A stretch of 64,000 bases of DNA from Myxococcus xanthus (GTDB lineage Bacteria; Myxococcota; Myxococcia; Myxococcales; Myxococcaceae). The notes beneath the pieces are model-generated. The model did not search any database. It saw nothing but the letters and a program-made list of their open reading frames with translations, and was not told where the DNA came from. Positions 39,536 to 55,260 of this stretch are shown here, piece after piece. Numbering within the stretch: position 1 is the stretch's first letter; each line of letters opens with the position of its first letter. The DNA is taken from positions 682,001 to 746,000 of the forward strand of contig NZ_FNOH01000002.1 of assembly GCF_900106535.1 (NCBI RefSeq), in the 5' to 3' direction. Made by a program: the position numbers and the translations under genes.

Positions 39536-40312
39536 TCAGCTCCGCTCCAGCGCGAGCGGCTCGCGCGCCACGGCGATGAAGAGTTCTTCCAGCGAGGCCT
39601 GGCCGTGCTCGCCGGGCAGCGTTCGCGGGTTGCCTTCCAGGAGCACCCGGCCGCGCGCCAGGAACAACACCCTGTCGCAGACCTCCTCCACCTCGTACAT
39701 GTTGTGGGACGTCCACAGCACGCCGCCGGCGTCCCGCGCGGCGAACTCGCGAATCCGGGCGCGGATGTCTCGAGCCGTCGCGGGGTCCAGCGACGCGGTG
39801 GGCTCATCCAGGAGCAACAGGTGCGGACGGTTGAGCATCGCCTTCGCCAGCGCCACGCGAGTCTGCTCTCCGGAGGACAGCACGCCACACTTCACGTCGC
39901 GGTACTTCACCAGGTCGAACTGCTCCAGCAACTCCGCGATGCGCGCCCCCAGGGACTTCACCCCGTAGATGAGGCCGAAGACGCGCAGGTTCTGGTACAC
40001 GGAGAGGTTGCCCGGCAGCGGCGAGTAGACGGCGGCGAAGTTCGTCAGCGCCAACGCGGCGGAGCGCTGCGCCGCCAGGTCCAGGTCCTGGATGTGGATG
40101 GTGCCGGACGTGGGCTGCAGCACGCCGAGCACCATGTTGATGGTGGTCGTCTTCCCCGCGCCGTTGGGGCCCAGCAGCCCGACAATCTCTCCGCGTCCCA
40201 CCTCGAAGGAGACACCCTCCACCGCGGCCTTGCCGCCGTACTCCTTCCGCAACTTCGCCACCGACAACGCCTTGGGCACGTCCGCCCTTCCCACGGTCAC
40301 CATGGCGCGCAT
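39536..40312 (-). CDS. ABC-2 type transporter ATPase
   Basis: 258 residues. Walker A GPNGAGKTTT (about 49-58), Q-loop region FAAVYSPLPG, signature LSSGEQTRVALAKAM, Walker B LLLLDEPTASLD and H-loop TSHNMYEVEE. The signature has LSSGE where LSGGQ is usual, which is common in ABC-2 exporters. It starts inside the 3' end of the three-GAF kinase gene (ATG 40312, 16-base overlap; ATG 40303 is an alternative), so the kinase, ATPase and permease are probably one transcript. Confidence 0.93.
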   Translation of the reverse strand: MRAMVTVGRADVPKALSVAKLRKEYGGKAAVEGVSFEVGRGEIVGLLGPNGAGKTTTINMVLGVLQPTSGTIHIQDLDLAAQRSAALALTNFAAVYSPLPGNLSVYQNLRVFGLIYGVKSLGARIAELLEQFDLVKYRDVKCGVLSSGEQTRVALAKAMLNRPHLLLLDEPTASLDPATARDIRARIREFAARDAGGVLWTSHNMYEVEEVCDRVLFLARGRVLLEGNPRTLPGEHGQASLEELFIAVAREPLALERS

Positions 40313-42810
40313 TGTGCCGTGGACCGGGGCAGGCGCACGGTGAAGATGGAACCCAGCCCGGGCCGGCTCTCCACCTCGATGCGGCCGCCCATGGCGTCCA
40401 CGATCTGCCGGCTGATGTAGAGCCCCAGTCCCAGGCCGCCATAGTGCCGGTCGGACACCGCGCGCTCGAAGCGGCCGAACAGGCGCGGCAGGTCCTCCGC
40501 GGCGATGCCGATGCCCTCGTCACGCACCGACACCCGCACCATCTCCTCGCCCTCGAAGGCCGCCTCCACCAGGACAGGCCGGCCCGCGCCGTACTTGGCC
40601 GCGTTGGTGAGCAGGTTCACCAGCACCTGGTCCAGCCGCAGCGCATCCCACTTCCCCGGCAGCGGGCCCGGCACCTCCACCCGCACCGGACAGCCCGCCT
40701 GGGAGAACACCTCCTCCATGCGGTCCACCGCGTCGCGCACCGCCTGGCCCAGGTCCACGTCGGACGGCTCCAGCATCAGCCGCCCCAGCGAAATCCGGCT
40801 GACGTCCAGCAGGCTGTCCACCAGCGCGCTCAGCCGCTGCACCTGCCGCACGGCCGTGGCCAGCCGGGGCCGCACCTTGTCCCCCACGTCTCCGAGCGCG
40901 GCGCGGTCGATGAGCCCGTGCTGGAGCTTCAGGCTGGTGAGCGGCGTCTTCAGCTCATGGCTGGCCACGGAGAGGAACTCGTCGCGCAGACGCACCGCGG
41001 CCTGCGCGTCCCGGTACAGCGACGCGTTCTCCAACGCCACCGCCACGCGCCGCGCCAGCTCCTCCGCCATGGCCACGTCGGCGGTGACCAGCCGGCGGCA
41101 GGGGGCCGCGGTGCCCAGCGTGATGACGCCCAGCGTGCGTCCGCGCATGCGCACCGCCACCGCGAGCAGCGAGTGTGGATTCAGCGCCTCCAGGAACGCG
41201 CGGTGCTCGGGCCCCTGGCACATGCGCTCGCGCAGCTCCGGCCCCACCTCGGGCAAGAAGCGCGTCTCCCCCGACAGGAAGCACTCGCGCGCCGGGTGCA
41301 GCGTGCCCTCCACCCATGGAAGGGACAGCGAGGCCAGCACCGACACGTCCCGCTCTGGCTCCCGGTGGGACGCGGCCACGGCGCGCGGCACGCCGTCCGC
41401 TCCCATCAACTCCACCAGGCAGTACGTGGCCACGTTTCGCGCGGCCACTCGCGCCAGGTGCTCCAGCGTCCACTCCACGTCGTCCAGGTGCTCGGCCAGC
41501 GCGCGGCTCGCCTCCAGCAGGAAGAAGAGCCGCTCCTCGGCCTCCTTGCCCGCCTCCAGCGCCACGTGCAGCTTGCCGCCGCGCTCACGCAGCGCCTCGT
41601 ACAGCGCCGCGCGCTCCAGCGCCTGCGCGCACTGCTGCGCCAGCGAGGACAGGAAGCCGCGCTCCTCCGCGAGGAACACCTGCGGCCCGTCCCACGTGAA
41701 CAGCAGGAAGCCCCGGATGCGGTGCTCCACCTTCAAGGGCAGCACCGCCCAGGCCCCGGGCCCCACGCCCTGGACGAGGTCCCGCGCCCACTCGGGCACG
41801 GCGCGCGGCACCGCCGCGTGGGTGGAGAACCACTGCGGCTCCAACTGCTCCAGCGCCCGGTCCACGCCGGGCACCTGGTCCGCCCACAGCCCTCGCAGGG
41901 TATCCAGCACCGCCGGTGCGTAACCGAAGGAGCCCAGCACGTGCAGCCGGCCATCCTCCAGCATGCCGAGCACCGCGCCGCGCGCCGGGCCCGCGGGGCG
42001 CAACTCCTCGCGCATCAGCGCTTCGGCCACGTCCTCGGCGGTGGCCGCGCGGGACAGGGCCGCGGTGATGGCCTGGAGGCGCTCGGTGCGCTGCTGCGCG
42101 CCGCGCGCCTCCGCGTACAGCAGCGCGTTGTCCAGGGACAGGCTGGCGCGCCGGGCCAGCTCCAACGCCAGCTCCAGGTCGGACGCGCCGGGCACACCGT
42201 CCGAGTCGCCCCGGACCAGCGACAGCGCACCGAGCACGCGGCCTCGCGCCAGCAGCGGCACGATGAGGCCCGCCCGGATGCCCAGGCGCCGCGCCACCTC
42301 CAACTGCGCCTCCGTGAGCACCACGCCCGGCAGCATCCCGTCCAGGACTTCGGGAAGGAGGGCGGCCTTGCCGGTGCGCAGCACCTCCGGGATACCGCCC
42401 TCGGCCGTCAGGTCCAGGGGCTGGAGGCGTGCCAGCTCGTGCACCAGCGGCACCTGCTCCGCCAGGCGGTGCGCCGCGGCCACCCGCTCAACCCGCCCGT
42501 CCGCCGTGAGCACGTCCACCGCGCACCAGTCCGCCAACAGCGGCACGGCCAACTCCGCCAGCCGCTTGAGCACCGTGCCCGAATCCAGAGAGGACGACAG
42601 CAGCTCGCCCGCGCTGGCCAGGAACGCGAGGCGCTCCTCCGCGTCGTCACTGCCGCGCAAGCGGACGGCATTCCCGGCCCCACCCCCACCCACCTGGGAC
42701 TCCAGCCCTCGCGGCGGACACACCGCGTCCGGTTCCGTGGAGACGGACCGCTCGGGTTCGCGCTCGTCCACGGACGCGGGCCGCGAGGATGAAGAAGGGC
42801 GGCGCGACAT
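40297..42810 (-). CDS. Sensor histidine kinase with three GAF domains
   Basis: 837 residues from the ATG at 42810 (MSRRPSSSSR); the frame extends to 42876 but adds basic sequence. An N-terminal Ser/Pro-rich tail, then three GAF-like domains (about 85-230, 250-420 and 435-590), each with an ALE/ALD-N helix (LSLDNALLYAEA, ALERAALYEAL, ALENASLYRDA). HisKA has VASHELKTPLTSL (His618), HATPase has NLLTNAAKYG, VRDEGIGI and GLGLGLYISRQIVDAMGG. No membrane helix, so it senses cytoplasmic ligands. It overlaps the ABC exporter genes, which suggests that it controls or is controlled with them. Confidence 0.9.
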   Translation of the reverse strand: MSRRPSSSSRPASVDEREPERSVSTEPDAVCPPRGLESQVGGGGAGNAVRLRGSDDAEERLAFLASAGELLSSSLDSGTVLKRLAELAVPLLADWCAVDVLTADGRVERVAAAHRLAEQVPLVHELARLQPLDLTAEGGIPEVLRTGKAALLPEVLDGMLPGVVLTEAQLEVARRLGIRAGLIVPLLARGRVLGALSLVRGDSDGVPGASDLELALELARRASLSLDNALLYAEARGAQQRTERLQAITAALSRAATAEDVAEALMREELRPAGPARGAVLGMLEDGRLHVLGSFGYAPAVLDTLRGLWADQVPGVDRALEQLEPQWFSTHAAVPRAVPEWARDLVQGVGPGAWAVLPLKVEHRIRGFLLFTWDGPQVFLAEERGFLSSLAQQCAQALERAALYEALRERGGKLHVALEAGKEAEERLFFLLEASRALAEHLDDVEWTLEHLARVAARNVATYCLVELMGADGVPRAVAASHREPERDVSVLASLSLPWVEGTLHPARECFLSGETRFLPEVGPELRERMCQGPEHRAFLEALNPHSLLAVAVRMRGRTLGVITLGTAAPCRRLVTADVAMAEELARRVAVALENASLYRDAQAAVRLRDEFLSVASHELKTPLTSLKLQHGLIDRAALGDVGDKVRPRLATAVRQVQRLSALVDSLLDVSRISLGRLMLEPSDVDLGQAVRDAVDRMEEVFSQAGCPVRVEVPGPLPGKWDALRLDQVLVNLLTNAAKYGAGRPVLVEAAFEGEEMVRVSVRDEGIGIAAEDLPRLFGRFERAVSDRHYGGLGLGLYISRQIVDAMGGRIEVESRPGLGSIFTVRLPRSTAQCAPW

Positions 42811-42913
42811 GGGGTGTCGGAGATAATGACGCCCCTCCACCTGCGACAACGGTGCCCGGACGCAGGTACGAGGCAAGTGTCAGCCAGATGACCTGCCAGA
42901 CAACGGCGCGGCC

Positions 42914-43905: not shown

Positions 43906-45042
43906 TCAGCGCGCGGGCCGAGGAGGGTTGCCCGCCTGGCTGCCCTCTTCCGCTAGCAAGGAGCCCTCCTCGCGCTCCTGTCCGGGGCTCCCGGTGCTCA
44001 AGCCCGGAAGGTTCCGCAGCACCTCGATGAGCCGAGTGAGCGGGCCTGTGTCCTCCCCCTGCGCCTCCAGTGTAGCGATGTGCTCCGTCAGCGGCAGGGG
44101 GAGCCAGTCGTGGCGAGCGGCGGCTCGGAGCGCCGTCACGTCCAAGAGGCCCAGCACCATGGTCTCCGGGCGTCCATGCATGCGAGGCAGCCGCTCACTG
44201 GAAGCGAGCACCGAACCGCGCTGGCCGCCCACGTTCCACTCCACGGGGAACGCCTGGAACACCTCACCGCGCGCGGCGCGCATCAGCGGCAGGTCTTCAT
44301 CCGCGAGCAGCCGGCCATCCGCGCCGCGGAAGCATGCGTCCGCATGCAGCGCGCGCGCCTCGCGGTAGGCCAGACAGCCCCCCGCCAGCCCTTGCGCCGC
44401 CCGGTTGGCCAGCAGGGTGTGGCCGCTTCCCGGCTCCACCAACGCCAGCGGCATGGGGAGCGCGGCAATCGCCGCCTCCAGCCAGCGCTGCTGGTTTCGG
44501 TTGGTTTCTGAACGAAGCCGTTCGGCCTCCACGCGCCGCTGCGCCTCCAGCAACTCCCGCGCGTGCTCGCGCTGCTGGGCCTCGCGCAGCGCCTCCGCCT
44601 GCCGCCGCACCAGCTCCGTCTTGCGGTACAGCTCCACGAAGACGCTCACCTTGGAGCGCAGGATGGCGGGCTCGAAGGGCTTGAGCAGGAAGTCCACCGC
44701 GCCCATGGCATAGCCGCGCAGCTCCGGATGTGGCCCCCGCGACAGCCCGGTGAGGAAGATGACGGGCGTGCCGCGACTGCGCTCTCGCTCGCGGATGAGC
44801 TGGGCCGTCTCGAAGCCGTCCATGTCCGGCATGACGACGTCCAGGAGGATGACGGCGAAGTCCTGCGTCAGCAGGTGACGCAGCGCCTCGCGGCCGCTGC
44901 TCGCGGTGACCAGCCGCTGCCCCAGGGGCGCAAGCGTCGCCTCCAGCGCCAGCAGGTTCTCCGGCTGGTCATCCACCAGCAGCAGGCAGACGGGCTCCGC
45001 CGGAATCGCCGGCAGGCGCTCGCGCGTCGGCGCGCCGCTCAA
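43906..45042 (-). CDS. Response regulator with coiled coil and PAS-like domain
   Basis: 378 residues. Receiver (about 17-135) with DDQ near residues 24-26, acceptor Asp68 and Lys in FLLKPFEP. A coiled coil (about 140-195, REAQQREHARELLEAQRR) leads to a PAS-like domain with IAALPMPLALVEPGSGHTLLANRAA and LLDVTALR. No kinase, GGDEF or DNA-binding domain follows, so it is an output or adaptor protein. It starts by ATGA overlap with the CheB-like gene and closes the four-gene operon begun by the HAMP-array kinase. Confidence 0.88.
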   Translation of the reverse strand: MSGAPTRERLPAIPAEPVCLLLVDDQPENLLALEATLAPLGQRLVTASSGREALRHLLTQDFAVILLDVVMPDMDGFETAQLIRERERSRGTPVIFLTGLSRGPHPELRGYAMGAVDFLLKPFEPAILRSKVSVFVELYRKTELVRRQAEALREAQQREHARELLEAQRRVEAERLRSETNRNQQRWLEAAIAALPMPLALVEPGSGHTLLANRAAQGLAGGCLAYREARALHADACFRGADGRLLADEDLPLMRAARGEVFQAFPVEWNVGGQRGSVLASSERLPRMHGRPETMVLGLLDVTALRAAARHDWLPLPLTEHIATLEAQGEDTGPLTRLIEVLRNLPGLSTGSPGQEREEGSLLAEEGSQAGNPPRPAR

Positions 45043-45596
45043 GGCAGCACCTTAGAACGCGGCACATAGGCCAGCCGCGCGAGCCACCCTCCCACGGAAC
45101 CCAACGTCAATTGCGCCATCGCTCCCTCCTCACCCGCTCCGCCCGTCTGGAGCGTGCTCACCACGGCCACCCGGGCGCCTCTCGCATGGAGCACCTGCAA
45201 GCCCGCCACCCCATCCTCGTGCCCCGCGAAGAGCAGCCCCGCGGCCCTGGGGCCATGGCTGTCCGCCGCGGATTCGAAGAGCGCGTCCAGGCCGGGCCGC
45301 TGCCCATGCTCGGGCGGCTCCACGGACAGGGACACGCAGCCCCGGTCCACCAGCAAGTGGTAGCCCGCGGGCGCCAGGTACACGGCGCCGGGCAGCAGCG
45401 GGTCCTTGTCGTCCGGCTCCACCACCGGCAGCGCGCAGCGGCGGCCCAGCGGCGCGGCCAGCGCGTCCAGAGGGCCCCGGTGCAGCGCCAACGCCACCGG
45501 CACGGGTAGGTGCGGAGGCAACAGCGCCAGCACCGACTCCACGTCCGCCGCCGCGCAGCGCGGCGCCCCCACCACCAGCAGCCCCAAGGGATTCAT
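45039..45596 (-). CDS. CheB-methylesterase-like protein without the nucleophile
   Basis: 185 residues, one CheB catalytic-domain fold without receiver. It keeps YLAPAGYHLLVD, RPGLDALFESAADSHG and LLFAGHEDGVAGL, with His39 (ALALHRG) and Asp128. The GASTGG that carries the Ser nucleophile in CheB is GAPRCA here (residues 10-15, Pro12 in place of Ser). It should not demethylate glutamates. Its ATG overlaps the CheR stop (ATGA). Probably a binding partner or inhibitor in the CheR pathway, although another nucleophile cannot be excluded. Confidence 0.8.
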   Translation of the reverse strand: MNPLGLLVVGAPRCAAADVESVLALLPPHLPVPVALALHRGPLDALAAPLGRRCALPVVEPDDKDPLLPGAVYLAPAGYHLLVDRGCVSLSVEPPEHGQRPGLDALFESAADSHGPRAAGLLFAGHEDGVAGLQVLHARGARVAVVSTLQTGGAGEEGAMAQLTLGSVGGWLARLAYVPRSKVLP

Positions 45597-46429
45597 GCCA
45601 CCCTCCTGAAGATGCGACCACAGTCATCCAGCATCTCGTAGGCCCCCGCGTGCGGCGTGCGCGCCAGCGACTCCTTGCGCCCCAGACACAGGAAGCCGAA
45701 GCGGGCGAGGCTCTCGAAGAGGCGGCCGTGGATGTGGTCGTGCAGTGCACGATTGAAGGTCAGCAACGTGTCCCGGCACACGATGACGTGGAACTCGTTG
45801 AACGAGCCATCCGTGGCCAGGTTGTGCTGGGTGAAGAAGATGCCGTCGCGCAGCCGGGGCTGGAGCAGCGCCCAGTTGCCATCGCGCGTGTAGTAGTCGG
45901 AGAGCGCGCCCTTCCCGCCCGCCTCCAGGTAGCGCTGCGCGTCCTCCTGCGTGGGCAGCGGCAGCACGCCGGTGCGCGCGTCCGCCAGCAGCCCTTCACT
46001 CGCGTCGGACGCATACAGCCGGCACTTGCCCCACAGCCCTTCCTCATGGAGGAGGATGGCCAGCGCGTACGTGTCCTCGCCGGTTCCACAGCCCGCGTGC
46101 CATACACGCACGGAGGGCCAGGTGCGAAGCACCGGCACCACCCGGGTGCGGAAGTCGCGGAAGAAGGCGGCCTCCGCGAACAGGGCGGGCGGTGTGCAGG
46201 ACAGCGTGCGCAGCAGCGCGTCCAACGCCTCGGCGTCGTGCAGCACGCGGGCCTGGAGCGCGGAGAAGCTGTCCAGCCGCTCCTCGCGGAGGTGGTGCCG
46301 CAGCCGCCGCAAGAGCTGCGGCCGGGAGCGGCTGCGCAGGTCGAAGCCCCATTGCCGGGCCACGCCCTCCAGCAGCAGGTCCACCTCCAGCGCCTCCAGC
46401 TCCGCGCCGCGCGCGCCGGGCCCCGTCAT
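45593..46429 (-). CDS. CheR-type glutamate methyltransferase
   Basis: 278 residues from the ATG at 46429, which overlaps the TGA of the giant kinase (ATGA). An N-terminal helical domain (about 15-95) leads to [17 protein letters not shown], and a SAM-binding [19 protein letters not shown], then [14 protein letters not shown] and [17 protein letters not shown]. The catalytic signatures look intact, unlike its CheB-like neighbour. Classical CheR methylates chemoreceptors; no receptor with a methylation domain is in the window, so the substrate may be a HAMP/coiled-coil region of the kinase or an unknown protein. Confidence 0.85.
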
Positions 46430-49400
46430 CCGGAGACCTCCGTGCGCGAACCGCGCGGCGGCATGCCCCGCGGCGCGTGCAGCCACACGCGCAGCAGGCT
46501 GAGCAGCTTCTCGATGTCCACCGGCTTGGTGATGTAGTCGGACGCACCGGCCTCCAGGCACTTCTCCCGGTCCCCCTTCATGGCCTTGGCGGTGAGGGCC
46601 AGGATGGGCAGATGGACGAAGCGCTCCATGCGGCGGATGGCGCGCATGGCCTGGTAGCCGTCCATCTCCGGCATCATCACGTCCATCAGCACCAGCTCGA
46701 TGTCGGCGTCCTTCTCCAACTGGTCCAGTCCCTCGCGAGCGCTCTCCGCGAAGGCCACCTTCATGCCGTAGCGCTCCAGCACGGTGTTGAGGGCGAAGAT
46801 GTTGCGCACGTCGTCGTCCACGACCAGCACCTTGCGGTTCACCAGCAAGGGGTCCTTCTCGCGCGCCTTCTCCAGCATGCGGCGCTTGGGCTCGGTCAGG
46901 TCCGAGGGCGAGCGGTGGAGGAACAGGCTCGTCTCCTCCAGCAGCCGCTCCGGGCTCTGCGCGTCCTTCACCACGATGGCCTCGGCCACCCGCCGCAGCT
47001 CCGTCTCCTGGGCGCGCGTCAGCTCGCGGCCCGTGTAGACGATGAGCGGCGGCCCGCCCGCGCCGTGCGCCTCATGGACGCGGCGGATGAGCTCCGTGCC
47101 GGGCATGTCCGGCAGCCCCAGGTCCAGCACCATGCAGTCGAAGCGGCGCTCGGCCAGCGCGGCCAGGGCCTCCGCCGCGGTCCCCACCGCCACCGTCTGC
47201 ACGTCATCACTGCCCAGGAGCTCCGTCAGCGTCTGGCGGTGGACGGGGTCGTCCTCCACCACGAGCAGCCCGCGGCCCTTGCGCTCCACGAAGCGCTTGA
47301 GGGACTCCAGCGCGGCCACCGCCGCCTCCGGGTCCGCCGCCGCGCGCAGGTGGCCAATGGCGCCCAGGTTGAGCGAGCGCTCGCGGTGGTCCTCCACCGA
47401 CACCGTGTACACCGGCAGCGCGCGAGTGGACGCGTCGTGCTTCAGCCGGTCCAGCACCACCCAGCCCGCCATCTCCGGCAGGTCCAGGTCCACCGCCACG
47501 GCCGCTGGCCGCGTGTTGCGGACGGCGTCCAGCGCGTCCTCCACCTCGGTAGACACCAGCAGCTTGAAGCCCGTGCCCTGCGCCGCGGCACGCAGGCGCG
47601 CGGCATGGTCCGCCAGGTGCGTCACGGCCAGCAGCACCTTGTCTCCAGGCAGGATGGAGCTCCGGTCATCGTCGATGTCCATCCGGCTCAGCGAAGACAC
47701 CCGCGACTCGGAGACTGGCTCCGCGATGGGCGCGGGGAGCACCGTGGTGGCCAGCGGGTTGTAGTCCCAGCGCGCATGCTCCTCCGGCGGACGCTCCGCC
47801 ATGAAGGCCAGCGGCAGGTAGAGGGTGAAGGCGCTGCCCCTGCCCACGTCGCTCTCCAGCCGGATTTCGCCGCCGAGCAGTCGCGCGATTTCACGGCTGA
47901 TGGACAGGCCCAGGCCGGTGCCCCCGTACTTGCGGGCGGTGGAGCCATCCGCCTGCTGGAAGGCCTCGAAGATGATTTGATGCTTGTCCTTCGGGATGCC
48001 GATGCCTGTGTCCGCCACGGTGAAGGCGACCACCGAGGGCGCGGAGGACAACATGGCGTGGTCCGGAGACCAGCCGCCCTTCGCCAGACCGATGTGCAGC
48101 GACACCGAGCCGGACTCGGTGAACTTGAAGGCGTTGGACAGCAGGTTCTTGAGCACCTGTTGCAGGCGCTTCGCGTCCGTCTCCAGCTCGCCGGGCAGTG
48201 AATCCCCCAGGCCGATGTGGAACTCCAACCCCTTTTTGTCCGCCACCTGCCGGAAGGTGCGGTCCACGAACTCGCGCAAGTCGCCGAAGCGCAGCGGACC
48301 CACGTCCACCGCCATGGTGCCGGATTCAATCTTCGACAGGTCGAGGATGTCGTTGATGAGCTCCAGCAGGTCCGCGCCGGACGCGTGAATCGTCTTGGCG
48401 AACTCCACCTGCCGCGACGTGAGGTTGCCATCCACGTTGTCACTGAGCGTCTGGCTGAGGATGAGCAGCGAGTTGAGCGGCGTACGCAGCTCGTGGCTCA
48501 TGTTGGCCAGGAACTCGGACTTGTACTTGGACGTGAGGCTCAGCTGTTCGGCCTTCTCCTCCAGGGCGAGCTTGGCCTGCTCCACCTCGCCATTCTTGCG
48601 CTCCACCTCCGTCTTCTGCTCGGAGAGCAGCTTCGCCTTCTCCTGGAGCTCCTCGTTGGTGCTGCGCAGCTCCTCCTGCTGACGCTTGAGCAGCTCCTCC
48701 GACTGCTGAAGCGAAGTGGCCTGCTGCTCCAGGCGCTTGTTCGTCTCCGTCAGCTCCTCCTGCTGCTTGCGGAGCTCGTCCGTCAGCGCCTGCGACTGCT
48801 TCAGCAGCGCCTCGGTGCGCATGTTGGCGGCAATCGTGTTGAGCACGATGCCGATGGACTCCGTGAGCTGCTCCAGGAAGCCCATATGGACCTCACTGAA
48901 GGTGTGGAAGGAGGCCAGCTCGATGACGGCTTTGACTTCCCCTTCGAAGAGCACCGGCAGCACCACGATGTTGCGTGGCACCTCCTCGCCCAGGCCGGAC
49001 GCGATGCGGATGTAGCTGTCCGGCACGTCCGACAGGAGGATGGGCTCCTTCTCCAGGGCGCACTGGCCCACCAGGCCCTCGCCGTACTTGAAGGTGTTCG
49101 CCAGTCCCTTGCGCTGGCGGTACGCGTAGGACGCCAGCAGCTTGAGCATCTGGTCGCCGCCGTCCGCGCGCTCGGAGATGTAGAAGACGCCGTGCTGGGC
49201 ATCCACCAGCGGCGCCAGCTCCGACAGGATGACCTTGGACACCGTGAGCAAATCCCGCTGCCCCTGGAGAACGCGGGTGAACTTGGCCAGGTTCGTCTTG
49301 AGCCAATCCTGCTCCGTGTTCTTCCGCGTGGTGTCCTTCAGGTTGCGGATCATCTCGTTGATGTTGTCCTTCAGGGCGGCCACTTCGCCCTGGGCGGACA

Positions 49401-52329
49401 CGGTGATGAACCGCGTGAGGTCACCCTTCGTCACGGCGGTGGCCACCTCGGCGATGGCGCGCACCTGCGTGGTGAGGTTGGCGGCGAGCTGGTTCACGTT
49501 GTCCGTGAGGTCGCGCCAGATGCCCGCCGTACCGGGCACACGGGCCTGACCACCCAGCTTCCCTTCGATGCCCACCTCGCGGGCCACCGTCGTCACCTGG
49601 TCGGCGAACACCGCCAGGGTGTCGATCATGCCGTTGATGGTGTCCGCCAGCTCGGCGATTTCACCCTTCGCGTCCACCACCAGCTTGCGCTTCAGGTCGC
49701 CGTTGGCCACCGACGTCACGACCTTGGCGATGCCGCGCACCTGCGTGGTGAGATTGGAGGCCATGGAGTTCACGTTGTCCGTGAGGTCCTTCCACGTGCC
49801 GGCCACGCCCTTCACCTCGGCCTGACCGCCCAGCTTGCCCTCGGTGCCCACCTCGCGCGCCACGCGCGTCACTTCCGAGGCGAACGAGTTGAGCTGGTCC
49901 ACCATCGTGTTGATGGTGTTCTTCAGCTCCAGGATTTCGCCCTGCACATCCACGGTGATTTTCTTCGACAGGTCGCCCTTGGCGACGGCCGTCGTCACCT
50001 CGGCGATGTTGCGCACCTGGGACGTCAGGTTCGACGCCATGGAGTTCACGTTGTCCGTGAGGTCCTTCCACGTGCCTGCCACGCCCTTCACCACGGCCTG
50101 GCCGCCCAGCTTGCCCTCCGTCCCCACCTCGCGCGCCACACGCGTCACTTCCGACGCGAACGAGTTGAGCTGGTCCACCATCGTGTTGATGGTGTTCTTC
50201 AGCTCCAGGATTTCGCCTCGCACGTCCACGGTGATTTTCTTGGAGAGGTCACCATTGGCCACGGCCGTGGTGACTTCCGCGATGTTGCGCACCTGGGACG
50301 TGAGGTTGGACGCCATGCTGTTCACGTTGTCGGTGAGGTCCTTCCACGTTCCACCGACGCCGCGCACGACGGCCTGACCACCGAGCTTTCCTTCCGTACC
50401 CACCTCGCGCGCCACGCGCGTCACTTCCGAGGCGAAGGACGACAGTTGGTCCACCATCGTGTTGATGGTGTTCTTCAGCTCCAGGATTTCACCGCGCACG
50501 TCCACGGTGATCTTCTTGGAGAGGTCACCGCGCGCCACCGCCATCGTCACCTCGGCGATGTTTCGCACCTGGGACGTGAGGTTGGACGCCATGCTGTTCA
50601 CGTTGTCGGTGAGGTCCTTCCACGTTCCACCGACGCCGCGAACGATGGCCTGACCACCGAGCTTTCCTTCCGTACCGACTTCCTTCGCGACGCGCGTCAC
50701 TTCCGAGGCGAAGGATGACAACTGGTCCACCATCGTGTTGATGGTGTTCTTCAGCTCCAGCACCTCGCCCTTGGCATCGACGGTAATCTTCTTCGACAGG
50801 TCGCCCTTGGCGACGGCCGTCGTCACCTCGGCGATGTTGCGCACCTGAGACGTCAGGTTCGACGCCATGGAGTTCACGTTGTCGGTGAGGTCCTTCCACG
50901 TGCCGCCGACACCGCGCACGACGGCCTGTCCTCCGAGCTTGCCCTCCGTGCCCACTTCACGCGCCACGCGCGTCACTTCCGAGGCAAATGAGTTGAGCTG
51001 GTCCACCATCGTGTTGATGGTGTTCTTCAGCTCCAGGATTTCGCCGCGCACGTCGACGGTGATTTTCTTCGACAGGTCGCCGTTCGCCACCGCCGTCGTC
51101 ACCTCGGCGATGTTGCGCACCTGCGACGTGAGGTTGGACGCCATGCTGTTCACGTTGTCCGTGAGGTCCTTCCACACGCCGGCCACGCCCTTCACATCGG
51201 CCTGACCGCCCAGCTTTCCGTCGGTGCCCACCTCGCGCGCCACGCGCGTCACTTCCGAGGCGAACGAGTTGAGCTGGTCCACCATCGTGTTGATGGTGTT
51301 CTTCAGCTCCAACACCTCGCCCTTGGCATCGACGGTAATCTTCTTCGACAGGTCACCCTTGGCGACGGCCGTCGTCACCTCGGCGATGTTGCGCACCTGG
51401 GACGTCAGGTTCGACGCCATGGAGTTCACGTTGTCGGTGAGGTCCTTCCACGTGCCACCGACACCGCGCACGACGGCCTGTCCGCCCAGCTTGCCCTCCG
51501 TGCCCACTTCACGCGCCACACGCGTCACTTCCGAGGCGAACGAGTTGAGCTGGTCCACCATCGTGTTGATGGTGTTCTTCAGCTCCAGGATTTCGCCGCG
51601 CACGTCGACGGTGATCTTCTTCGACAGGTCGCCCTTGGCGACGGCCGTCGTCACCTCGGCGATGCTCCGCACCTGCGCGGTGAGGTTGGAGGCCATGGAG
51701 TTCACGTTGTCCGTGAGGTCCTTCCACGTGCCGGCCACGCCCTTCACCTTGGCCTGACCGCCCAGCTTTCCGTCGGTGCCCACCTCGCGGGCCACGCGCG
51801 TCACCTCGGAAGCGAATGCGCCGAGCTGCTCCACCATCCCGTTCACCAACCGGGCGGTGCGGAGGAACTCGCCTCGGAGGGGACGTCCATCCACTTCCAG
51901 GGCCATGGTCTGCGACAGGTCACCTTTGGCCACGGCGCCGATGACGCGGCCCATCTCCGTCGTCGGTTGCACCAGGTCGGCCACCAGCATGTTCACCGAC
52001 TCGACACAGTCGCCCCACGAGCCCAGCGCGCCCACCACGTTGCCGCGCTGGGTGATGCGGCCTTCCTTGCCCACCACGTTGCCGATGCGCTCGAACTCAC
52101 GGGCCATGCGCTCGCTGAGTTCGATGATTTCGTTCAACGTGTCCGCCACCTTCCCGGCGCTGCCCACCTTGTCCACCGGCATGCGCACGGAGAAGTCGCC
52201 CTTGCGGACGGCGGTGAGGACCCGCAGCAACTGGCGCGAGTCGAGCGACTGCGAATCATCCTCCCGGATTCGCGGTGAAGGGGGAGCCGCGACAGCTTCA
52301 CGGCGGGAGGAAACCTTCTTCGTGGCCAT
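46426..52329 (-). CDS. Poly-HAMP hybrid histidine kinase, cytoplasmic
   Basis: 1967 residues, ATG with AGGA six bases upstream, no membrane helix. About eleven HAMP units fill residues 25-970; each inner unit is 92 residues and reads [26 protein letters not shown] and [24 protein letters not shown] (about 1020-1170), long coiled coil (about 1175-1265), HisKA with [11 protein letters not shown] (His1279), HATPase with NLLSNAFKF and [18 protein letters not shown], then three receivers with candidate acceptors Asp1614, Asp1736 and Asp1883. The first receiver lacks the usual acidic pair. The layout matches fungal group III kinases (Nik1/Os-1). Followed by CheR, CheB-like and receiver-PAS genes. 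Confidence 0.93.
49760..51835 (-). repeat. 276-bp tandem repeats (HAMP-encoding)
   Basis: The marker ACCATCGTGTTGATGG recurs at 49901, 50177, 50453, 50729, 51005, 51281 and 51557, exactly 276 bases apart each time. The seven units are nearly identical in DNA, including silent positions; flanking units at both ends are more diverged. Gene conversion or recent expansion is likely. Confidence 0.93.
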
Positions 52330-53390: not shown

Positions 53391-53756
53391 TCAGCCTTGC
53401 TTTCCGTCCAGGGCCTTGCGGACCTGTCGCATCAGCGCGTGGATGTCGAAGGGCTTCTGGAGGAACGGCATGCCAGGATACCGATGCCGCAGCGCGGACA
53501 CGTCCACCGCGCTCATCCCCATGAGTGAGACATCCTTGTAGGCCGGCTCGGCCCGGATGCGCTCGATGAGTGCCGGTCCGTCCAGAACGGGCATCATCCA
53601 GTCAGTGAGGACCAGGTCCGGCCGGAGCTCCGCCATCCGCTCCAGCGCCTCACGGCCGTGAGAGGCCGTCAGGACGCGATAGCCCTCCTCCCGAAGGAGG
53701 TCCGCCAGGGCTTCCAGGATGCCCTGCTCGTCATCCACCACCAGGACCGTCTCCAT
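53391..53756 (-). CDS. Single-domain response regulator
   Basis: 121 residues from the ATG at 53756 (METVLVVDDE); the longer frame to 53846 is the antisense of the KaiC gene. Receiver with DDE at 8-10, acceptor Asp52 (LTDWMMP) and Lys in FLQKPFDIH. No output domain. It lies 28 bases after the KaiC-like gene, suggesting that it takes signals to or from it. Confidence 0.9.
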   Translation of the reverse strand: METVLVVDDEQGILEALADLLREEGYRVLTASHGREALERMAELRPDLVLTDWMMPVLDGPALIERIRAEPAYKDVSLMGMSAVDVSALRHRYPGMPFLQKPFDIHALMRQVRKALDGKQG

Positions 53757-53784
53757 ACGGGTGGTACTACTCCTCGACGTTCGT

Positions 53785-55260
53785 TCAGAAATGGCCAGTG
53801 CCCGGGTGCCGGGCAAGTCCCGTGAGCAGGGTATCCACAGCGACACTGAAGGGGGGCAGCACCTCGATTCCCTGGGGTGTGATGACGAACTCCCTCAGGG
53901 TGGGGTCATAGTGGGTGTCACGCATCTTGAAGATGCTCAGCAGCCTGCGCAGGCGGCCTTCGAGCTCGACATGTCTCAGGAAAAAGAGGTTCTCCGCCAC
54001 AGCGGAAGGACCCACCTCCATCGGGACGTCCAGCACCGGACCGAAGAGCCGCGGTGTCTCCATGCCGAAGAGGGTGGTGGTCCCCGTGCAACGCAGCTCC
54101 TGGGTGAGGGCCGCGAAGAACGAATTGATGCGCGCGGGCTCGGGCGAGGCCTGTTGCATGGCGCTGAGCCCGTCCACGAACACCCGCTTCACGTTGCGCC
54201 GCCGAACGTCCGACAGGAGCTGGTCCGCCAACACGTCGAGAATGCACTCGGAAGGCGGCTGCCAGATGAAGTTGAGCCGTCCATCCGCCATAGCGCCGCC
54301 CAGGTCGATACCCGCGGATGCAACCTTGCCCAACAGCCGGTTGGGCGGCTCGTAGAAGCCCATGTACAGACAGTGCTCGCCCTGCTTCAGACCCTCTGCC
54401 AGCAAGCTGCATCCCAGCAGCGTCTTGCCCGCGCCAGGTGGACCGAGCAGCAGGGAGGTGGACCCCGCCGCCAGCCCCTCCGGGAAGAGCGCGTCCAGGG
54501 ACGGAACGCCGAAGTGGAGGCGGTGGGCGCCCGGGTCCGGCGGCGGCGTGCGCTGCACCCGCGACTCCAACCGGGGGAAGACCTCCAACCCGTCGCTGGT
54601 GATGCGGAAGGCGTGGACGCCGTGCAGCGTGGGGCTCCCCCGGAACTTGCGCACTTGCAGCTCGCGCCAGGAGCGCACGCCCTGGGTGCGCTCGCGCAGC
54701 TCCAGGATGCCATCCACCATGGTGTATTCCGGATGGACGGCGGGACCGTTAGCGCTGGTGAGCAGCAGCGCCGTGAAGCGCGTCAGCCCGGCGGCGACCT
54801 GGAGCTCGTGGATGAACTTCTTGAAGTCGCGGCTGCTGCCGGCCGCCTCCTGCGCCTGCACCAGGCCATCCAGCACCAGGATGCTGGCGTTGTGGTTGCG
54901 CACCTCGCGCCGCAAGAGCTCCAGCAACCCCGGCAGCCCGTGCTCCTCCAGCGTGCGGAAGCCGCTGACGTAGTAGACGCCCTCGGGCAGCAGCGCCGAG
55001 TCGAAGAAGGCCATGTCCCGCATGTTGGCCAGCATGCGAGCGTGGGACTCCGCCAGCAGCGTGACATACAGGCACCGCGCGCCGGCGCGCCCCTGGTGGT
55101 AGCAGAGCTGGTTGGCGAAGAGCGTCTTCCCCGCGCCCGGCTCCCCCACGAAGATGTAGACACCCGACGACACGAGCCCGCCGCCCAGCACGGCGTCAAG
55201 CCCAGGCACGCCAGTCGATACGCGTGCGTCCTGCCGTGCGGGTTGCTCGGAAGAGGACAT
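53785..55260 (-). CDS. KaiC-like double RecA-fold ATPase
   Basis: 491 residues. Two RecA/KaiC domains: the first with GEPGAGKT (39-46), LYVTLLAESHARM and ILVLDGLVQ; the second with GPPGAGKT (about 271-278), LYMGFYEPPNRL and VFVDGLSAMQQA. The order is that of circadian-clock KaiC, but the conserved Ser/Thr phosphorylation sites and the C-terminal extension of KaiC are not visible, and no KaiA or KaiB gene is near. Such proteins act as oscillators or as ATP-dependent signalling switches. It is followed by a receiver and a hypothetical gene in one likely operon. Confidence 0.88.
   Translation of the reverse strand: MSSSEQPARQDARVSTGVPGLDAVLGGGLVSSGVYIFVGEPGAGKTLFANQLCYHQGRAGARCLYVTLLAESHARMLANMRDMAFFDSALLPEGVYYVSGFRTLEEHGLPGLLELLRREVRNHNASILVLDGLVQAQEAAGSSRDFKKFIHELQVAAGLTRFTALLLTSANGPAVHPEYTMVDGILELRERTQGVRSWRELQVRKFRGSPTLHGVHAFRITSDGLEVFPRLESRVQRTPPPDPGAHRLHFGVPSLDALFPEGLAAGSTSLLLGPPGAGKTLLGCSLLAEGLKQGEHCLYMGFYEPPNRLLGKVASAGIDLGGAMADGRLNFIWQPPSECILDVLADQLLSDVRRRNVKRVFVDGLSAMQQASPEPARINSFFAALTQELRCTGTTTLFGMETPRLFGPVLDVPMEVGPSAVAENLFFLRHVELEGRLRRLLSIFKMRDTHYDPTLREFVITPQGIEVLPPFSVAVDTLLTGLARHPGTGHF

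Follow-up and report, generated by a model that had tools for sequence, protein, structure and literature searches.

What do a chemotaxis-type methyltransferase and methylesterase do in an operon in which neither appears able to catalyze its reaction? The question is raised by four genes of Myxococcus xanthus in a 64,000-nucleotide stretch of contig NZ_FNOH01000002.1 (positions 682,001 to 746,000), here called the window, whose positions are used below. The genes lie on the minus strand and run in the same direction, in the order kinase, CheR-like, CheB-like and receiver-PAS (REC-PAS). A preliminary description of this DNA had them joined by three ATGA overlaps; the four are joined, and ATGA is found at the kinase/CheR and CheR/CheB junctions, but the CheB/REC-PAS overlap is TTGA. 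The same description took the CheR to be intact and the CheB to lack its serine, and it proposed methylation without demethylation, a one-way memory. We find instead that the CheR-like and CheB-like proteins are both predicted pseudoenzymes, and we propose that they and the REC-PAS protein serve as a non-catalytic accessory trio to the kinase, which we identify by elimination as AskA.

The CheR-like gene (45593..46429, with its start at 46429) encodes a 278-residue protein with the Pfam domains CheR_N and CheR. Its AlphaFold2 model has a pLDDT of 89.5 and matches 5ftw best, with a TM score of 0.79. The catalytic residues of CheR are reported to be R98 and Y235 (PMC3447774; PMC5907407), and bacteria with CheR R98A are reported to fail in swarming (PMC3447774). 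In an alignment to 1bc5, the window protein has Ala85 at the Arg98 position of the Salmonella enzyme (codon 46175..46177) and Thr224 at the Tyr235 position (codon 45758..45760). Orthologs were sought in 145 genomes of the order. In all 30 that were found, the Arg98 position is A, S, T or D and the Tyr235 position is T, S or A, so that both catalytic residues are gone and the CheR cannot be called intact. In the other CheRs of the order (n = 26, a fragment in genome G109 not being counted), Arg is present in 26 and Tyr in 25, with Ser in the remaining one, L041. The loop that binds S-adenosylmethionine (SAM), GCGTGED in the window (46073..46093), is kept as G-C-G-[ST]-G-E in 30/30 orthologs, which also share an invariant new motif, CRD. 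The frame is open in all 30 genomes; an in-frame stop in G077, G083 and G084 sits upstream of it, as the query reached 44 codons further upstream than the CheR start. The prediction that the CheR-like protein is a methyltransferase pseudoenzyme is well supported by the residue losses, together with the Pfam match and the model.

The CheB-like gene (45039..45596) encodes 185 residues and no receiver. The match to Pfam CheB_methylest covers profile positions 2–140 of 174, leaving the C-terminal part of the profile unmatched, and the AlphaFold2 model (pLDDT 88.0) has a TM score of 0.84 to 1chd. The reading of GASTGG as having become GAPRCA holds: the nucleophile Ser164 aligns with Pro in 30/30 orthologs, in which GAPR is invariant (Pro12 in the window, codon 45561..45563). 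Ser is kept in 20/20 other CheBs that were read. The other two members of the triad, His39 and Asp128, are conserved in the orthologs. A segment found near the C-terminus of catalytic relatives, TAxxxxMPxAAI, is absent here, and the GANxDG loop has one residue fewer. A substitute serine was considered and rejected. Only two serines, residues 91 and 109, are invariant among the 30 orthologs, and both fall in columns where catalytic relatives, too, mostly have Ser. No replacement was seen among the orthologs, and the loss of the nucleophile stands. The frame is open in 30/30 genomes. That this protein is a methylesterase pseudoenzyme is likewise a well-supported prediction.

The preliminary description had suggested a search for the four-gene neighbourhood in other genomes. 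The operon is conserved in 30/145 genomes of the order, with three genus groups represented, a recurrence that excludes chance and shows that relatives do have it. The CheB search gives an ortholog in 30 genomes at E ≤ 8.1e-61, the next match being at 2.5e-26. The CheR search returns the same 30 at ≥71% identity, with distant relatives at ≤46% and one partial match in G109 (74% over query residues 25–223). Of the 30, 22 (the window's own genome among them) come from the 27-genome genus group to which the window belongs; the remaining 8 are all the genomes examined from two further genus groups in the family. In every one the CheR, CheB and receiver-protein genes are adjacent. Within the genus, the median dN/dS is 0.25 for CheR (211/231 pairs used), 0.42 for CheB (213/231) and 0.37 for REC-PAS (218/231).

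The kinase (46426..52329) is a putatively cytoplasmic hybrid histidine kinase of 1967 residues with HAMP/HAMP_2, GAF, HisKA and HATPase domains and three receivers in Pfam. About eleven HAMP units had been counted before, and 11 canonical HAMPs are indeed present; they alternate with ~10 divergent ones in an array with a period of 92 residues (residues 32–1007; 49309..52236). Receiver 1 (47275..47640) is degenerate, with LAVTH in place of the acidic pair and the Lys gone. Receiver 3 (46471..46833) is intact, with DDD, D and K.

Two poly-HAMP kinases, AskA (MXAN_0712) and AskB (MXAN_6735), are described in M. xanthus, and the hybrid kinase AskC (MXAN_6734) is encoded immediately downstream of askB (PMC7643160). 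According to that paper, the three form a complex that senses ambruticin/glycerol, and each of them binds MrpC and FruA; ambruticin VS-3 is bound weakly by AskC, and AskA Rec3 interacts with the AskC receiver in a two-hybrid assay. AskA or AskB alone is enough for fruiting, an earlier claim that AskA is essential not having been reproduced. In the window's genome, HAMP-part matches at E ≤ 1e-40 come from two loci (150/341 first-look candidates scored). The second encodes a kinase of 2478 residues with a 671-residue receiver-kinase directly after it; the window kinase is the one not followed by an askC-type gene. Because the other poly-HAMP kinase precedes a receiver-kinase as askB precedes askC, the window kinase is AskA by elimination. 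In the single-contig genome G118 the two poly-HAMP kinases lie at 0.84 and 8.41 Mb, positions that would suit the locus numbers MXAN_0712 and MXAN_6735. The assignment as the MXAN_0712 ortholog is thus made by elimination and map position. M. xanthus AM003 (L115) has the operon as well (CheR 99%, C-terminal part of the kinase 98%).

The fourth gene (43906..45042) encodes a 378-residue protein with a receiver followed by a coiled-coil/PAS-like part and no kinase domain. It had been called a receiver-PAS protein; Pfam confirms one receiver, whereas no PAS family passes E 0.001, and PAS is kept here as a label of convenience. The protein is a relative of AskC, with 61% identity to the AskC candidate over residues 19–176. 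A histidine-kinase domain is present in the fourth gene of 4/30 genomes (G081–G084) and absent from all 22 Myxococcus and from G077–G080. Since G077 and G079, the two of G077–G080 that the trees include, group with members of G081–G084 (supports 90 and 98), two later losses are the simplest account, and the domain was apparently lost in Myxococcus and again in part of the Hyalangium group. Outside the AskA clade (100 loci looked at), 82 of the 87 fourth genes with a match have a kinase domain. Four of the five exceptions (L123, L170, L179 and L194) are short or mis-started extracted frames, and the fifth, L151, is a closed frame of 309 residues. Four Hyalangium-group loci (L100, L101, L103 and L120) have a second AskC-like receiver-kinase a few kb downstream of the askA operon, whereas in the window's genome the AskC-like receiver-kinase follows the second poly-HAMP kinase. 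The window itself contains a GAF-histidine kinase gene (40297–42876) whose kinase domain shares 48–51% identity with the one encoded by the fourth gene in the Hyalangium group (L101, L120).

Where do intact versions of these genes occur? We examined 80 named loci, the best 80 of at least 576 confirmed candidates. Seven belong to the AskA clade (four records of Myxococcus and one each of Pyxidicoccus, Hyalangium and Comamonas), and 7/7 have lost the CheR Arg, the CheR Tyr and the CheB Ser. The Comamonas record (L116, ‘Comamonas sp. KCTC 72670’) has an askA operon 92–93% identical to that of the window and is probably misnamed. In the 73 loci outside the clade, whose CheRs are 42–51% identical, Arg and Tyr are both kept without exception, and Ser is kept in 32/32 with a nearby CheB match. 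No CheB was seen within 4 kb downstream in the other 41, some of these loci being cut short. Kinase–CheR–CheB–REC cassettes occur in cyanobacteria, Acidobacteriota and Chloroflexota. The poly-HAMP array, a CheR and a CheB that are both catalytic, and a related receiver are found together in 18/73 of these non-myxobacterial loci, and the array ends ~3 kb before CheR in 15 of the 18, as in the window (~7 kb in L154, L156 and L172). One relative with catalytic-looking CheR and CheB belongs to the same family: L045 (G086), whose poly-HAMP kinase shares 79% identity across the HAMPs. Some Myxococcus genomes carry a catalytic paralogous cassette. The catalytic relatives presumably methylate and demethylate their own kinase.

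The CheR loss has a single origin. All 16 non-catalytic rows fall together in a 48-row CheR tree (support 100, one state change), on a long stem of 1.32, and the 16 AskA-clade kinases are likewise united in the kinase tree (support 100, stem 1.03). Both trees were made by a quick method and carry long-branches-meet warnings; they are used for the AskA clade only. The acidic pair and Lys of receiver 1 are lost in 16/16 AskA-clade kinases and kept in 29/30 other rows, L094 being the single row outside the clade without them.

Two sets of loci have a CheR with catalytic residues and no CheB found nearby. In L087–L092 (G075, G073, G076, G045, G048 and G043) and L094 (G018), a poly-HAMP kinase is followed by such a CheR. 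The sequence retrieved for them contains no CheB match, and in 5 of the 7 an AskC-like receiver-kinase lies upstream; these loci are a better place to seek methylation without a local demethylase. The other set, L122–L193, is mostly from Paenibacillus and Saccharibacillus and consists of kinase–CheR–receiver-kinase cassettes.

How, then, might the operon work? Since the sequences mark the writer, the eraser and one receiver as dead but still under constraint, the residual function is likely to be binding. We propose, with middling confidence, that an ancestral catalytic methylation cassette gave rise to a kinase accompanied by three non-catalytic accessory proteins, which tune the AskA/AskB/AskC switch. 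The ancestral cassette would have comprised a poly-HAMP hybrid kinase, a CheR methyltransferase, a CheB methylesterase and a receiver-kinase. The conversion would have taken place a single time, in the ancestor that Myxococcus shares with the Hyalangium group, with loss of the CheR and CheB catalytic residues and of the receiver 1 pocket of AskA; the kinase domain of the fourth gene would have gone later. The CheR-like and CheB-like proteins would still bind the HAMP/coiled-coil region of AskA, likely the ancestral substrate, and the former may still bind and report SAM or S-adenosylhomocysteine (SAH). The REC-PAS protein would dock on receiver 3 of AskA, or take phosphate from it, in competition with AskC. 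In this way the trio would tune the fruiting/sporulation switch without methylating anything.

Several points weigh against this proposal. Pseudoenzyme status is well supported, but the docking, SAM-sensing and competition steps are ones that we infer. The window kinase has 9 LGGQA units, as against 6 partial helix-turn-helix hits published for AskA (PMC7643160), and its identification is one by elimination. Neither the kinase tree nor the CheR tree singles out one catalytic cassette as sister to the AskA clade. The dN/dS values come from the Nei–Gojobori method, which is rough at high GC, and the CheB value is not near zero. Moreover, four Myxococcus genomes (G102, G111, G113 and G114) keep AskA and have no orthologs of CheR, CheB or the receiver protein, so the trio is dispensable for AskA. 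In these genomes AskA is ~85% identical after the HAMPs and is followed directly by the gene normally downstream of the trio; the trio was lost as one unit. The per-domain identities of their AskA proteins show no clear decay, with receivers 1 and 2 slightly lower, and an attempt to locate a docking site from such decay gave no clear signal.

The trio-less genomes belong equally to the main rival, a slow decay in which catalysis was lost first and the kinase domain of the fourth gene next, whole genes are now being deleted, and the proteins do nothing that matters. A remnant in G109, where no AskA match was found, fits this account: it consists of CheR residues 9–174 and, 8 bases on and in another frame, CheB residues 139–185. 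(At L095:9088-9975 of the same genome, an open frame of 295 residues begins with a CheR-like N-terminus and runs out of frame through the CheB-like C-terminal remnant.) The varied residues at the former catalytic positions and the long stem branch also suit decay. Against it are the CheR and CheB frames, open in 30/30 genomes of three genus groups, median dN/dS values below 1, and the invariance of the SAM loop and GAPR, and we consider it a doubtful, though serious, contender. A bolder version of non-catalytic function, which we regard as unlikely, is a dead scaffold, in which a pseudo-methyltransferase that senses SAM/SAH, a pseudo-methylesterase and a decoy receiver would sit on the former methyl sites of AskA and couple one-carbon metabolism to the fruiting/sporulation decision.

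It is tempting to ask whether the conserved new motifs mark a new chemistry on some other substrate, with SAM still in use or a different nucleophile at work. GAPR and CRD are invariant, the SAM loop is conserved, and His39 and Asp128 remain. The Arg98 and Tyr235 positions, however, vary as those of a new active site would not be expected to, and the CheB has neither the TAxxxxMPxAAI segment nor a GANxDG loop of full length, being one residue short there, which makes this quite improbable. Alternatively, a CheR or CheB from elsewhere in the genome could act on AskA, with the local copies as recruiting adaptors. Six further CheB-like matches in the window's genome, and the catalytic paralogous cassette of some Myxococcus genomes, would be in keeping with this, but no further CheR reaches E 1e-30 in the window's own genome, and we think such recruitment very unlikely. 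As for a one-way memory, in which CheR methylates the kinase and CheB cannot demethylate it, the loss of the CheB Ser would agree, but we reject it as highly improbable because the 30 genomes without the CheB Ser are also those in which CheR has lost Arg98 and Tyr235, so that the memory has no evident enzyme, and the reported non-swarming of R98A bacteria (PMC3447774) points the same way.

The accessory trio, as we favour reading it, has to be set beside known systems. The preliminary description knew of no chemosensory system of this composition. That is too broad, as AskA is published and catalytic cassettes occur in the 18 outside loci, but in the literature searched, with supplements not searched, we found no description of the CheR/CheB-like pair or of joint catalytic loss. 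What is apparently undescribed is that joint loss, as judged from sequence; cassettes of this type are found in several phyla. The Ask system (PMC7643160) has the same kinase architecture and two poly-HAMP kinases, the second followed by a receiver-kinase whose receiver our fourth gene resembles. CheR and CheB, on the other hand, are not mentioned in the main text of that paper (supplements not searched), in which we met no discussion of what lies downstream of askA. In the literature searched, again with supplements not searched, MXAN_0712 itself turned up in one paper, and six locus numbers neighbouring it in none. The catalytic cassettes of cyanobacteria, Acidobacteriota, Chloroflexota and other myxobacteria share the gene order and homologous CheR and kinase, but keep CheR Arg98/Tyr235 and the CheB Ser, and their fourth gene usually has a kinase domain. 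The fungal group III hybrid histidine kinases (Nik1/Os-1/Bos1) are also cytoplasmic poly-HAMP hybrid kinases, a likeness to NIK1 drawn in PMC7643160; the window kinase differs in its three receivers, GAF domain and CheR/CheB-like neighbours. CheR relatives without catalytic residues, proposed to be possibly inactive, are known among CheR-TPR proteins with an N-terminal TPR (PMC3447774). The window protein has no TPR, and its loss is paired with that of CheB in one operon.

A published developmental kinase gains three operon partners of which we found no study and whose genes are open to deletion in a standard laboratory strain. Within a single lineage the writer and the eraser were each stripped of catalytic residues, yet the pair persists in 30 genomes. 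Sister genomes with AskA and no trio, relatives that keep the fourth kinase, and those with fully catalytic versions provide natural controls.

Nine proteins, from the operon and its flanks, were scanned with Pfam, and no CheA, CheW or chemoreceptor was found among them. Just upstream of the operon, at 53391–55260, a gene for a KaiC-like two-domain ATPase overlaps a single-receiver gene, and a KaiC-like gene (61%) lies upstream of askA in Hyalangium too (L120). The G+C content is 0.64–0.65 across 48001–52000, which holds the kinase with its HAMP repeats, as against 0.67–0.74 in the remaining 2-kb bins of the window.

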